A DNA stretch of 64,000 nt, taken from an uncultured Mycoplasmatota bacterium. GTDB taxonomy: Bacteria > Bacillota_I > Bacilli_A > RF39 > UBA660. A program made the position numbers and the translations under genes. The stretch is taken from positions 1 to 64,000 of the forward strand of contig CANOTJ010000001.1 of NCBI GenBank assembly GCA_947570175.1. The letters are read 5' to 3'. Shown here in pieces: positions 14,689 to 24,918 of this stretch. The notes beneath the pieces are model-generated. The model had not been told where the DNA came from, searched no databases, and saw nothing but the letters and a program-made list of their open reading frames with translations. Each line of letters starts with the position of its first letter. The stretch's first letter is position 1.

Positions 14689-14765
14689 GCGCTCGTAGCT
14701 CAGCTGGATAGAGTGTTTGGCTACGAACCAAAAGGTCAGGGGTTCGAATCCCTTCGAGCGCACCA
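14689..14765 (+). tRNA. tRNA-Arg (ACG), last tRNA before the island
   Basis: The acceptor arms GCGCTCG / CGAGCGC pair perfectly. The anticodon loop CTACGAA gives ACG and CCA is encoded. Its 3' end is the left border of the mobile region and merges into copy A of the recurring CACCA-hairpin element. Confidence 0.97.
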
Positions 14766-14866: not shown

Positions 14867-15142
14867 ATGGTAAGTATAGTTAGTAAAGAATTACACTTTG
14901 ATGAGGAACTAAAAAAGAAAATAGAGTTTATTTGTGATTTTTGTAATACTACTCCAACTATAATAAATGGTTGTATCAAGAATATTAAGAGGACAAATCT
15001 CTCCTACATAGAACCTCATAGAGTTATTATTAAAGGTATTACATTTCTAGTATTTAACTATTCTAAAACTATTTATATTGGAAATTTACGAAATAGTATT
15101 GAAATCAAAGATTTAGAGGGTTTTATTAAATCGTTAGATTAA
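14867..15142 (+). CDS. Conserved 91-aa protein paired with serine recombinase 1
   Basis: I know no named family. Its closest visible relative is the 91-residue protein at 19124, which also lies directly before a serine recombinase. Conserved blocks are KIEFIC.FCNTTPTI.NG (with CxxC), EPHRVIIKG.TFLVFNY and DLE..IKSL. The pattern suggests a compact alpha/beta domain, possibly metal- or nucleic-acid-binding; a regulator or directionality factor for the recombinase is an inference from position. GAAAGGA precedes the ATG. The gene follows the tRNA terminator. Confidence 0.75.
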   Translation: MVSIVSKELHFDEELKKKIEFICDFCNTTPTIINGCIKNIKRTNLSYIEPHRVIIKGITFLVFNYSKTIYIGNLRNSIEIKDLEGFIKSLD

Positions 15143-15208
15143 ATGTATTAAATTGTATCAACTTCTTTTAAAATTGCCTTTAAATAGGCAAAATATGGTA
15201 ATTATGTC

Positions 15209-15236
15209 TTGACTTTACATTAAAAGAATCTATAAT
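15209..15236 (+). promoter_or_regulatory. Promoter of recombinase 1 leader
   Basis: TTGACT, 16 bp, TATAAT. It drives a roughly 150-nt leader that contains a short ORF and a terminator before the recombinase start. Confidence 0.75.
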
Positions 15237-15259
15237 AGGAAAGCAATAAAGGAAGTTTT

Positions 15260-15343
15260 ATGTTTTGTGGGGTTAATATAAAACAAATTAATAAGCAACA
15301 TAATGAAATTTATAGAGGTGTCAAAGACATAAAACAAAATTAA
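15260..15343 (+). CDS. Possible leader peptide (27 aa) of recombinase 1
   Basis: A 27-codon ORF with its own AAAGGAAG Shine-Dalgarno begins about 18 nt after the expected transcription start. Its last codons lie in the ascending arm of the terminator at 15314-15366, and its stop falls in the loop. A ribosome on this ORF would block the terminator, the geometry of translational attenuation. The peptide is basic with no obvious codon runs, so what it would sense is unknown. Confidence 0.35.
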   Translation: MFCGVNIKQINKQHNEIYRGVKDIKQN

Positions 15344-15366
15344 ATGTCTTTGTCGCCTCTTTTTTG
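15314..15366 (+). terminator. Attenuator-like terminator in the recombinase 1 leader
   Basis: A long stem (AGAGGTGTCAAAGACAT / ATGTCTTTGTCGCCTCT, nearly perfect) and a 13-nt loop are followed by six Ts. It lies between the promoter at 15209 and the recombinase start at 15395, so most transcripts should stop unless it is opened. Confidence 0.8.
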
Positions 15367-15370
15367 ATGA

Positions 15371-17320
<1,950 letters not shown>

Positions 17321-18986: not shown

Positions 18987-19048
18987 GTTGTAGATAACAA
19001 CCACTATCGCACCAGAGAAGAATCTGCTCGAACTTTTATAGTTTTGAG
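18987..19048 (+). repeat. Recurring island element, copy B
   Basis: A hairpin GTTGT-AGATA-ACAAC is followed by CGCACCA (19008-19014), AGAATCTG and a second hairpin CTCGAAC...GTTTTGAG (19027-19048). It matches copy A in CGCACCA, AATCTG and the position and first arm of the second hairpin. It lies 76 bp before the second 91-residue gene, as A does (73 bp) before the first. Confidence 0.5.
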
Positions 19049-19061
19049 CTTAATGATAAAT

Positions 19062-19091
19062 ATCAATTCTAGAAATGGAATTGATTTTTTT
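19062..19091 (+). terminator. Terminator in the leader of the module 2 small gene
   Basis: A perfect 8-bp stem ATCAATTC / GAATTGAT is followed by a run of six Ts. It matches the terminator after copy A in sequence and position. Confidence 0.75.
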
Positions 19092-19123
19092 AATGTTCAA
19101 AAGAAAGTGAGGAGATTCTTAAA

Positions 19124-19399
19124 ATGGTAACAATTAAGAATGAAAAAATCGAAATGGAAGAAGCACTTAAAAATAAGATAGAGTTTATTTGTAGTTTTTG
19201 TAATACCACTCCTACTATTTATAATGGAAATATAAAGATGATAGAACACACGAATTTGCAATATGTAGAACCTCATAGAGTTATTATTAAAGGTGTAACT
19301 TTTCTAGTATTTAATTATGAACCTAATATCTATGTTGAAAATTTAACTAAATCTATTCCACTAAAAGATTTAGAAGAATATATTAAGTCATTAAATTAA
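19124..19399 (+). CDS. Conserved 91-aa protein paired with serine recombinase 2
   Basis: A second copy of the 91-residue family seen at 14867, the same length and roughly 55-60 percent identical by eye. It has KIEFICSFCNTTPTIYNG, EPHRVIIKGVTFLVFNY and KDLEEYIKSLN. The CxxC pair (FICSFC) is kept, but a further Cys of the first copy is absent. It precedes recombinase 2 with a phased repeat array between. Function unknown; a role with the recombinase is inferred from the two matching contexts. GTGAGGAG precedes the ATG. Confidence 0.75.
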   Translation: MVTIKNEKIEMEEALKNKIEFICSFCNTTPTIYNGNIKMIEHTNLQYVEPHRVIIKGVTFLVFNYEPNIYVENLTKSIPLKDLEEYIKSLN

Positions 19400-19471: not shown

Positions 19472-19542
19472 TTGCATACTTTTTGCAAGAATTTTGCAAC
19501 TTTTTTGCAGGAAATTTGCAACAATTTTGCCTAGACATTGCA
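19472..19542 (+). repeat. Seven TTGCA motifs at exact 11-bp spacing
   Basis: TTGCA begins at 19472, 19483, 19494, 19505 and 19516, TTGCC at 19527 and TTGCA at 19538, each exactly 11 bp apart. The repeat consensus is close to TTTTGCAANAA. The last copy may overlap a -35 (TTGCAG, 18 bp, TATATG) for recombinase 2. One-turn spacing suggests cooperative binding of a protein along one face of the helix. Confidence 0.9.
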
Positions 19543-19603
19543 GGTAATACAGGTAAAATAATATATGCTAATGGATAAATAGCAAGTAAATATATTAAAT
19601 TAG

Positions 19604-21523
<1,920 letters not shown>

Positions 21524-21974: not shown

Positions 21975-21983
21975 TGATATAAT
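21975..21983 (+). promoter_or_regulatory. Extended -10 promoter of the alkylation-repair operon
   Basis: TGATATAAT lies 20 bp before the ATG of the AdaA-AlkA gene. No inverted-repeat operator is obvious. Confidence 0.55.
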
Positions 21984-22003
21984 TGTTATTGAAGGAGGAC
22001 ATT

Positions 22004-23473
22004 ATGGATACTAAAAGTTTTAATTCCTTTTATGAAGCATTTAAGTCAAAAGATAAAAGATTAGATGGTAAGTATTTTATGGGTGTATCTTCTACTGGTA
22101 TTTATTGCAGACCTGTATGTACTGCTAAAATGCCTAAAAAAGAAAACTGTACTTTTTATAAAAGTGCAGCTGAAGCAGAATTAAATGGATATAGACCTTG
22201 TTTAACTTGCCGTCCTGAGCTTGCTCCTGGAAATGCTAAAGTAGATTCTTCCAAAACAATTCTCAAAAAAGCATTAAAATTGATTGATGATGGATTATTA
22301 GAAGAAAATAACTTGCAAGAATTATCTTTAAAGCTAGGTGTTAGTGATCGACATTTAAGAAGAATATTTAATGATGAATTAAATGTATCTCCAATAGATT
22401 ATATTGAAACATCACGATTATTGCTTGCAAAAAATCTACTAACTGATACAAAATTAAGTATTTTAGATGTAGCGTTTGCATCAGGTTTTAAAAGTTTACG
22501 AAGATTTAATGCTTCATTTAAAGATAAATATAAGATACCACCTAGTCATTTTAGAAAAGAAAATAGCAATATTAAAACTGATACTATTACTTTAAAATTA
22601 GGATATAAAGAACCCTTTAGGTATGAAGCATTATTAAAGTTTTTAGAACATCGTGTTATTCCTAAAGTTGAAAAAGTAGAAGAAAATAAATATTATAAAA
22701 CTCTTGCCATTAAAAAAGATAATGAATATGTATATGGATATATCATTGTAGCAAATAACAAAGATAAATCAGCATTAGAAATTACTTTATCTGAAAGTTT
22801 GGTTAAAGTGCTACCACAAGTATTGAGTGTTATTAGAAATATGTTTGATTTAAACTCTGATCCCTATACAGTTTATGATGTGTTAAAAAGTGCAAATGAT
22901 ATTATCCCAAATTGTTTTAAATTAGGAACAAGAATACCTGGTTCACCAAGTGATTTTGAAATGGTTGTAAGGGCAATTATAGGACAGTTAATCAGTGTTG
23001 AAAAAGCAACAGAAGTATTATCTAATTTTTGTAAAAAATATGGTAAAAAACTAGAAACAAATATTGATGGATTAGAATATATCTTCCCTATACCAGAGTC
23101 TATATCACAACTTAATAATATTTATGATGAATTATGTTCTCTAAAAATGACTAGAACAAAGGCAGATGCCATAAAAGGAATGGCAGAAATACTCACAAAT
23201 GAAAAGTTAAGTTTTAAAGGAATTATTGATTCTAAAGAAACAATGGATAAAATGTTAAAAGTGAAAGGTATTGGTAAATGGACAGTAGATTATGTTGCTA
23301 TGAGAGGTATGAATGAAACTGATATATTACTAGACACCGATTACGCTATAAAAAAGATTATGAAAATTAAGAATACTGAAGATGTTAGTATCTTTGATAA
23401 ATACAAACCATATAGAACTTATTTAACAATAGGTTTATGGGAAACAGAAAAGGAGATTTTAGAAAATGAATAA
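22004..23473 (+). CDS. AdaA-AlkA fusion: methyl-phosphotriester sensor and 3-methyladenine glycosylase
   Basis: A three-part protein. The Ada zinc domain (about 1-75) has the four Cys ligands in YCRPVC and RPCLTC; one of these accepts a methyl group from DNA phosphotriesters. An AraC-type helix-turn-helix region follows (about 85-185, LSLKLGVSDRHLRRIFND and SGFKSLRRFN). The AlkA part (about 200-489) has the HhH-GPD motif VKGIGKWTVDYVAMRG and catalytic Asp region LLDTDYAIKK. It lacks the O6-methylguanine transferase domain, which is supplied by ogt two genes later. ATG 22004 has GGAGG. It is probably a methylation-activated regulator of its own operon. Confidence 0.93.
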   Translation: MDTKSFNSFYEAFKSKDKRLDGKYFMGVSSTGIYCRPVCTAKMPKKENCTFYKSAAEAELNGYRPCLTCRPELAPGNAKVDSSKTILKKALKLIDDGLLEENNLQELSLKLGVSDRHLRRIFNDELNVSPIDYIETSRLLLAKNLLTDTKLSILDVAFASGFKSLRRFNASFKDKYKIPPSHFRKENSNIKTDTITLKLGYKEPFRYEALLKFLEHRVIPKVEKVEENKYYKTLAIKKDNEYVYGYIIVANNKDKSALEITLSESLVKVLPQVLSVIRNMFDLNSDPYTVYDVLKSANDIIPNCFKLGTRIPGSPSDFEMVVRAIIGQLISVEKATEVLSNFCKKYGKKLETNIDGLEYIFPIPESISQLNNIYDELCSLKMTRTKADAIKGMAEILTNEKLSFKGIIDSKETMDKMLKVKGIGKWTVDYVAMRGMNETDILLDTDYAIKKIMKIKNTEDVSIFDKYKPYRTYLTIGLWETEKEILENE

Positions 23474-23825
23474 AAATGTAATTGTATTATTTGAAGTAAC
23501 TGTGCGTGATGGAAAGATGGATGACTACTTGGCTCGTGCAAGCAAGTTAAAAGAACATTTAAAAAGCATGAAAAGATTTATTAGTGCAGAAAGATTTTCT
23601 TCTTTATCAACCGAAGGAAAGTTACTCAGTATGTCAGTATGGGAAAATGAAGATGTTGTTAAGGAATGGCGTAACTTTGAAGCACATAGAGAAAGTCAAC
23701 AAGCAGGAAGAATGGATGATTTTGTAGATTACAAGATCACTGTTGTAACACCAATTAGAACCTATACGATGGATTCAAGAGAAAATGCACCAGTTGATTC
23801 TAATGATTATTTTAAAGTAAATTAG
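23466..23825 (+). CDS. ABM-domain (antibiotic-biosynthesis-monooxygenase-like) protein
   Basis: A 119-residue ferredoxin-like protein. VIVLFEVTVRDGKMDDYLARAS starts the dimeric alpha/beta barrel, and SVWENEDVVKEWRNFEAHRESQQAGR matches ABM/YdhR-type small monooxygenases. It starts inside the 3' end of the AdaA-AlkA gene (8-bp overlap), so it is translationally coupled. Such proteins act on varied substrates; in this operon it may detoxify or process an alkylating compound, which is an inference. Confidence 0.8.
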   Translation: MNKNVIVLFEVTVRDGKMDDYLARASKLKEHLKSMKRFISAERFSSLSTEGKLLSMSVWENEDVVKEWRNFEAHRESQQAGRMDDFVDYKITVVTPIRTYTMDSRENAPVDSNDYFKVN

Positions 23826-23836
23826 GAGGTATTATT

Positions 23837-24376
23837 ATGGTTTATAAATGGGTATATAAAACACCTGATGGATTCGATGATATGTTGATGAATAGTGATG
23901 GAGAATATCTAACTGGACTATGGTTTATAGGTTCAAGAGATGCTTCTAAACATATCGTAGATTGTGAAGAAAAAAACTTGCCAATATTCAAAGAAACAAG
24001 TAAATGGTTAGACATTTATTTTAGTGGTAAAAATCCAGATTTTACACCAAAATATAAAATAAAAAATTTAACACCATTTAGAGAAGAAGTATCAGATATA
24101 ATGAATTCTATTCCATTTGGTGAAACTTTAACTTATAATGATATATCAAAAATGATTGCTGAAAAAAGAGGGCTTAAAAGAATGTCTAGTCAAGCAGTTG
24201 GAGGAGCTGTAGGATGGAATCCTATTTGCATTATTATTCCCTGCCATAGAGTTGTTGGATCGAATGGAAGTTTAACAGGTTATGGTGGAGGAATAAAAAA
24301 TAAAGTAGCTCTTTTAACTCACGAACAAAATGATATGAGTAAATATTTTGTTCCCAAAAAAGGAACTGCCTTATGA
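23837..24376 (+). CDS. ogt: O6-methylguanine-DNA methyltransferase
   Basis: It removes methyl groups from O6-methylguanine by irreversible transfer to its own Cys. The active site PCHRVVG is present in IIIPCHRVVGSNGSLTGYGGG, with the preceding helix-turn-helix (FGETLTYNDISKMIAEKRGLKRMSSQAVGGAVGWNP). At 179 aa the protein is typical. AGGAGG precedes it, 11 bp after the ABM gene. The next gene overlaps by 4 bp. Confidence 0.95.
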   Translation: MVYKWVYKTPDGFDDMLMNSDGEYLTGLWFIGSRDASKHIVDCEEKNLPIFKETSKWLDIYFSGKNPDFTPKYKIKNLTPFREEVSDIMNSIPFGETLTYNDISKMIAEKRGLKRMSSQAVGGAVGWNPICIIIPCHRVVGSNGSLTGYGGGIKNKVALLTHEQNDMSKYFVPKKGTAL

Positions 24377-24918
24377 AAAGATGTAAATGGTGTAATTTAG
24401 AAAATCCTTTATATGTAGAATATCATGATAGAGAATGGGGAGTACCTAATTTTGATGATAAGTATTTATTTGAAATGTTGATATTAGAATCATTTCAAGC
24501 AGGACTATCTTGGGAGTGTGTTTTAAATAAAAGAGAAGATTTTAGGATTGCTTATGATAACTTTGATATAGATAAAGTGATAAATTATGATGAAGATAAA
24601 ATAAATGAACTACTATCTAATGAAAAAATCATAAGAAATAAGTTAAAAATAAACATTAGTGTAGGCAATGCAAAAATATTTAAAAATATTCAAAAAGAAT
24701 ATGGAAGTTTTTATAATTATTTAATCACATTTACAAAGGACAAATTATTGTGTGAAGTAGATAAAGTAACGAACGATTTATCAGATGCTATCTCAAAAGA
24801 CTTGATTAAAAGAGGAATGAAGTTTGTAGGTTCTACCATTATATATTCTTACTTACAAGCAACAGGTTTTATTTATTCCCACGAAAAAGACTGTTTTATG
24901 TATAAGGAAAAACTATGA
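24373..24918 (+). CDS. tag: DNA-3-methyladenine glycosylase I
   Basis: Tag excises 3-methyladenine. The N-terminal zinc Cys and signature KRCKWCNLENPLYVEYHDREWG are clear, as are ESFQAGLSWECVLNKRE and the closing KFVGSTIIYSYLQATG with a His before the last Cys. The length is 181 aa. ATGA overlaps with both neighbours show tight translational coupling. It complements the broader AlkA activity of the first gene. Confidence 0.96.
   Translation: MKRCKWCNLENPLYVEYHDREWGVPNFDDKYLFEMLILESFQAGLSWECVLNKREDFRIAYDNFDIDKVINYDEDKINELLSNEKIIRNKLKINISVGNAKIFKNIQKEYGSFYNYLITFTKDKLLCEVDKVTNDLSDAISKDLIKRGMKFVGSTIIYSYLQATGFIYSHEKDCFMYKEKL

Follow-up and report, generated by a model that had tools for sequence, protein, structure and literature searches.

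The stretch of DNA analysed here (the window) comprises 64,000 nucleotides from an uncultured Mycoplasmatota bacterium and carries two recombinase modules, the second of which bears a phased repeat array ahead of its recombinase gene. The element that holds this second module contains only two genes, encoding a 91-residue protein (p91) and a large serine recombinase (recombinase 2), and the element at locus L042 looks alike. Its features are as follows.

19010-19014, plus strand: CACCA at the element's left edge (element start ~19015).
19062-19090, plus strand: hairpin resembling a terminator, ATCAATTCTAGAAATGGAATTGATTTTTT, located between the left edge and p91; read from the sequence and also conserved at homologous loci.
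19124-19399, plus strand: p91, a 91-aa protein of an unnamed family linked to these recombinases, with conserved G35, N44, P50 and a TNL-Y-EPH motif.
19472-19542, plus strand: TTGC(A) repeat array, 7 copies at an 11-bp step, from sequence, simulation and unit alignment.
19532-19537, plus strand: −35 element TAGACA, from a promoter scan, directly after TTGCC of copy 6 and ahead of copy 7.
19538-19542, plus strand: copy 7 (TTGCA), within the −35/−10 spacer, its end 11 bp upstream of the −10.
19554-19559, plus strand: −10 element TAAAAT, from the promoter scan, aligning with homologous promoters.
19606-19633, plus strand: intrinsic-terminator-like hairpin in the recombinase leader, 5′ of the ribosome-binding site, a possible attenuator.
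19661-21523, plus strand: large serine recombinase 2, 620 aa (Resolvase, Recombinase and zinc ribbon), from a family search.

Structure prediction for p91 was of good confidence (pLDDT 90.7), and comparison with Pfam, PHROG, NCBIfam, PDB sequences and known folds returned no match. The promoter region had no match in plasmids and p91 none in plasmids or phages, so a plasmid or phage origin was rejected. Between the tRNA and p91 (19015-19124) we observed the terminator hairpin and no clear promoter; p91 may owe its expression to transcripts that begin at the tRNA promoter and read through.

The seven copies start at 19472, 19483, 19494, 19505, 19516, 19527 (TTGCC) and 19538, and every step is exactly 11 bp, as a preliminary description of this DNA had reported. 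That description also held such phasing to be improbable by chance, and simulation agrees: allowing any 4-mer with at least two G/C at any step of 8-15 bp, the longest run is 7 in the window versus 2-3 (maximum 3) in 60 Markov-simulated windows. No second TTGC array was found in the window or elsewhere in the 1.38-Mb genome. Apart from the array, the genome has three TTGC copies in phase at a single isolated position (G000:C21:16337), and the array alone contains an exact double TTTGCA box. With neither a second array nor a second exact double box in the genome, a host regulon was rejected as an explanation.

The array had further been said to differ from CRISPR and from usual iterons. The first half of this statement stands, as a period of 11 bp with 5-7 bp conserved does not match the CRISPR layout of ~25-40-bp repeats with unique spacers; the second half is less clear, as 11-bp TTTGCA arrays are also present in phage replication-initiator genes. 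The array could be an origin or partition site (iterons or a centromere) of the excised circle rather than an operator. TTTGCA at 11-bp steps occurs in viral contigs, in arrays of 4-11 copies, several of them inside genes matching replication-initiation or primosomal families, and L121, from the same bacterial family, has an 11-bp array beside a DnaD/phage-O-like gene. Unlike those phage arrays that lie inside replication genes, the present one surrounds a −35; moreover, the element has no Rep or Par gene, no replication initiator gene within it is linked to the array, and at every homologous locus the array is locked to the recombinase −35, a place that other words can occupy. We consider an origin or partition site quite unlikely. 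L121 (1380-1560, from G174) in fact holds two 11-bp arrays near that gene, one TGTACC-type and one of nine TTAG/TTAC/TTAT units, in another element. Two further queries of viral contigs were discarded: TTTGCCTAGACATTGCA retrieved one unrelated sequence without repeats, and a loose four-copy TTGC scan was too unspecific to use.

The best promoter in the scan is TAGACA, 16 bp, TAAAAT, with transcription predicted to start near 19566. Its −35 thus takes up the variable part of copy 6 (TTGCC-TAGACA), and the array runs from ~−90 into the recombinase core promoter. It had been suggested that the last copy may overlap the −35, and this placement is corrected here: the −35 lies between copies 6 and 7, with copy 7 in the spacer. 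Across 57 upstream units, TTGC is present in 57/57, A5 in 54/57, T11 in 53/57 and T10 in 45/57, with columns 6-9 free, which gives a 7+4 layout of conserved TTTTGCA (columns 10, 11 and 1-5) followed by about four free bases. In all TTGC arrays except that of L271, offset 5 of the penultimate unit is where the −35 begins; in the window, L033 and L099, 11-12 bp separate the end of the last repeat from the −10. Alignment of a protein strictly on one face of the DNA, as suggested earlier, is not required: a step of 11 bp falls gradually out of phase with a helical turn of 10.5 bp, and in a sister array, located on a homologous promoter, the step is 12 bp.

Spacing and sequence also bear on an explanation that invokes no specific protein, in which phased T-tracts bend the DNA and serve as an upstream promoter element offsetting weak core boxes. 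Weak core boxes suit such a helper, and the arrays fall in the top 1-2% of shuffles for compaction in a simple wedge model. However, the curvature is far below that of an A-tract control in the same model, an exact 11-bp step (12 in the sister array) is ill suited to planar bending, and bending needs neither a TTGC invariant across all upstream units nor its repetition within the core promoter. Curvature as the sole function thus strikes us as improbable.

Module 1 lacks the array, in line with the preliminary description, and has instead a near-consensus promoter (TTGACT-16-TATAAT, 15209-15236); the module directly follows tRNA-Arg (14689-14765). Upstream of its promoter, at 15172-15196, we observed a TTGCC...GGCAA inverted repeat (TTGCCTTTAAATAGGCAA), the half-word of which equals array copy 6 but is arranged as a palindrome.

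Comparison of the upstream regions of homologous recombinases, which the preliminary description had proposed as a check, revealed conservation of both motif and spacing in register, so the idea survived the refutation that the description itself had set. Among ~110 loci fetched by recombinase homology, the array lies in register upstream of close relatives of recombinase 2 (80-96% identical) and of the recombinase at L099 (37%). Register and copy number are kept at G029, L031, L032, L033, L079, G065, G087 and G102 and, with a 37%-identical recombinase, at L099, G114 and G094, while G263 and G268 have shorter or variant arrays. Across loci the copy number ranges from 5 to 7, the step is invariably 11 bp, and the promoter-proximal copies are always retained. 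All of these G-numbered arrays other than G029 were added, at recombinases or p91 genes, by a scan of 291 genomes of the family, in which 15 genomes (some of them with unrelated repeats) contained a four-copy match versus 3 for a reversed control pattern. The array of the window and that of L099 are 82% identical, whereas the 60-bp flanks on both sides are 40-47% identical, against a random level of 42%; the array is therefore common to otherwise unrelated promoter regions. Among 100 genomes of the class, the promoter junction was found in the window's own genome only.

The repeats might instead serve as accessory sites in recombination, with the recombinase itself as their binder, in the way that IS607-family TnpA dimers bind helically phased motifs. 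The IS1535 serine transposase TnpA binds four such motifs and spreads as a filament (PMC6188088), and here too a serine recombinase element carries phased motifs. TnpA motifs, in contrast, lie at the transposon ends and are read by a different DNA-binding domain, whereas this array is ~450 bp inside the element and not at its edge. In addition, related recombinases at 59-62% identity are without the array, yet one that is 37% identical has it. We therefore assign accessory sites a very low probability.

Words other than TTGC form comparable arrays. In a survey of 73 intergenic regions, perfect 11-bp TACT and TTAC arrays and a 12-bp TTAC array were found, besides TTGC, in L099 and/or L137; shuffled regions, used as the control, gave perfect-array matches at period 11 about once in 1460. 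TACT and TTAC arrays are rare in the bacterial family, and the TTAC arrays place the −35 at the same offset as the TTGC arrays do (TTACC-TAGACT-TTAC). L034 has a short GTAC array with an 11-bp step, read by eye from the unit alignment. The window promoter is homologous, from the −35 through the leader to the terminator, to the third promoter (P3) of L032, L119 and L034, where TAYCAG at 12-bp steps (the unit being read by eye) replaces TTGC at 11. The array is therefore an exchangeable block; since different words occupy one homologous promoter, elements of this kind may evolve their inputs by swapping operators. In a broader and rather speculative proposal, which we think unlikely to hold, the arrays would be exchangeable input modules of at least five words, at 11- or 12-bp steps. 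Mobilizable elements that target tRNA CCA ends would trade them around the −35 of their recombinase promoters and stack up to four ahead of a single recombinase, letting each element respond to regulators of different partner elements or hosts.

Both p91 and the recombinase had been named as proteins to try for binding to the array, and the comparisons disfavour both. The TTGC array is shared with elements in which the recombinase is 37% and p91 ~24% identical to the window's, yet L034, with a recombinase 81% and p91 ~66% identical, has a GTAC array. Because the array word is mismatched to protein identity, it is unlikely that either protein sets the word; moreover, no family or fold match was found for p91. 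Judged from these sequence comparisons, the putative binder is probably a protein of the host or one that regulates a different mobile element.

Given these data, we infer that a DNA-binding protein would occupy the repeats head-to-tail, one subunit per 11-bp unit, contacting TTTTGCA and leaving ~4 bp free in each. Binding would be cooperative, would extend from upstream into the recombinase core promoter, and would control recombinase transcription and, through it, excision or integration. Direct repeats in helical phase are already known from Apl operators, R1 parC, IS607-family ends and iterons; unusual here are the locking of the array on a serine recombinase −35 and the swapping of words.

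The sign of control is hinted at by PhoB/OmpR boxes, which are direct repeats of ~7 conserved and 4 free bp at an 11-bp step, with the last box ~11 bp before the −10 and a weak −35; pho boxes usually number 2-4 copies. The array resembles these operators in its 11-bp direct repeats and 7+4 layout, in the distance of the last repeat from the −10, and in a suboptimal −35 (TAGACA). Unlike a pho box, it has seven copies, its TTTTGCA is no pho box, the −35 still scores 5/6, and no candidate regulator gene is linked to it. The resemblance weakly suggests activation in the PhoB/OmpR-box manner. Our leading explanation, held tentatively, is thus a promoter-linked operator array on which a protein assembles cooperatively and activates recombinase transcription. 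Two features tip the balance slightly towards activation rather than repression: array promoters have poorer −35 and −10 boxes, and the last repeat lies 11-12 bp upstream of the −10. Consensus matches average 8.9/12 in array promoters versus 10.8/12 in array-less homologues (p = 1.6e-4, an optimistic value for a hand-picked sample of related, non-independent promoters), with counter-examples in an array promoter with a consensus −35 (L270) and in the 12-bp P3 array, which sits on a good promoter (11/12). A protein bound between −35 and −10 usually blocks polymerase, which counts against activation, as copy 7 sits there.

Repression is possible, if somewhat doubtful: an Apl/Xis-like or ParR-like filament would nucleate on the repeats and cover the −35 and spacer, keeping the recombinase off while the element is integrated. 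The bracketing of the −35 by copies 6 and 7 favours this arrangement, and the weaker core boxes of array promoters relative to array-less homologues speak against it. Phage 186 Apl, a recombination directionality factor and repressor, binds seven direct repeats 10-11 bp apart, one monomer per turn and with strong neighbour cooperativity, and from these operators, located between pR and pL, it represses both promoters cooperatively (PMC7498355). The array likewise comprises seven tandem direct repeats one helical turn apart at a promoter. Apl, however, is the partner of a tyrosine integrase and has att among its binding sites, its spacing is 10-11 rather than exactly 11 bp, and the word differs. 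No directionality factor gene (HTH_17/AlpA/Cox-like) was found in the window element, which has only p91 and the recombinase, and no Xis-, Apl- or ParR-like gene was seen in the element of the window or of L042. ParR of plasmid R1 needs at least two 11-bp repeats, ten of which flank the par promoter, and among related systems the repeat words and spacings differ and define specificity classes (PMC9426499). Like R1 parC, the array places many 11-bp direct repeats at a promoter in a mobile element; unlike it, the element is integrative and not a plasmid, and no parM or parR genes were found beside the repeats among the ORFs and families around the array.

According to a 2017 review, a directionality factor had not been proposed for a single serine-recombinase mobilizable element (PMC5704250). 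A conserved, exactly phased putative operator locked to a recombinase promoter offers a ready bait for finding the switch, which is relevant to the control of such elements in uncultured gut Bacilli.

Many of these mobilizable elements have a Mob_Pre relaxase. A tRNA gene ending in CCA lies 79-146 bp before p91 in 69/103 p91 upstream regions (a few counted twice), covering at least 20 anticodon classes, and elements with p91 and a serine recombinase begin directly after the tRNA CCA (14765/14766 and 19014/19015 in the window), with a T-arm-like TTCGAA just inside. The 3′ CCA ends of tRNA genes thus seem to be general targets of these p91-recombinase elements. Multi-target insertion at such ends is unusual for serine recombinases; the 2017 review assigned tRNA 3′ ends to tyrosine-integrase IMEs and described serine-recombinase IMEs as inserting within genes (PMC5704250). 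In several cases a second serine-recombinase element (~616-628 aa) lies inside the tRNA-targeting recombinase gene (L031:150-5001, L033:1100-4990, G094 (L269) and G000:C6 (L264)). It adjoins the catalytic RVSTEDQ codons, with junctions seen in L031 and L033, and its target seems to be the recombinase of other mobile elements.

Hairpins like that at 19606-19633 precede the recombinase in most homologous loci. A terminator-like hairpin just 5′ of the ribosome-binding site was observed in nearly all these recombinase genes (window 15142-15395 and 19560-19660; L036, L037 and L100), overlapped in some loci by a short leader ORF, such as MFKRRYIIDSLFKRSQEY in L036. The combination of leader hairpins and leader ORFs suggests attenuation control of the recombinase genes. 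Right after the window element, at 21983-24918, lies a DNA-alkylation repair-like gene run (Ada/AlkA-like, Ogt-like and Tag-like, read from the translation).
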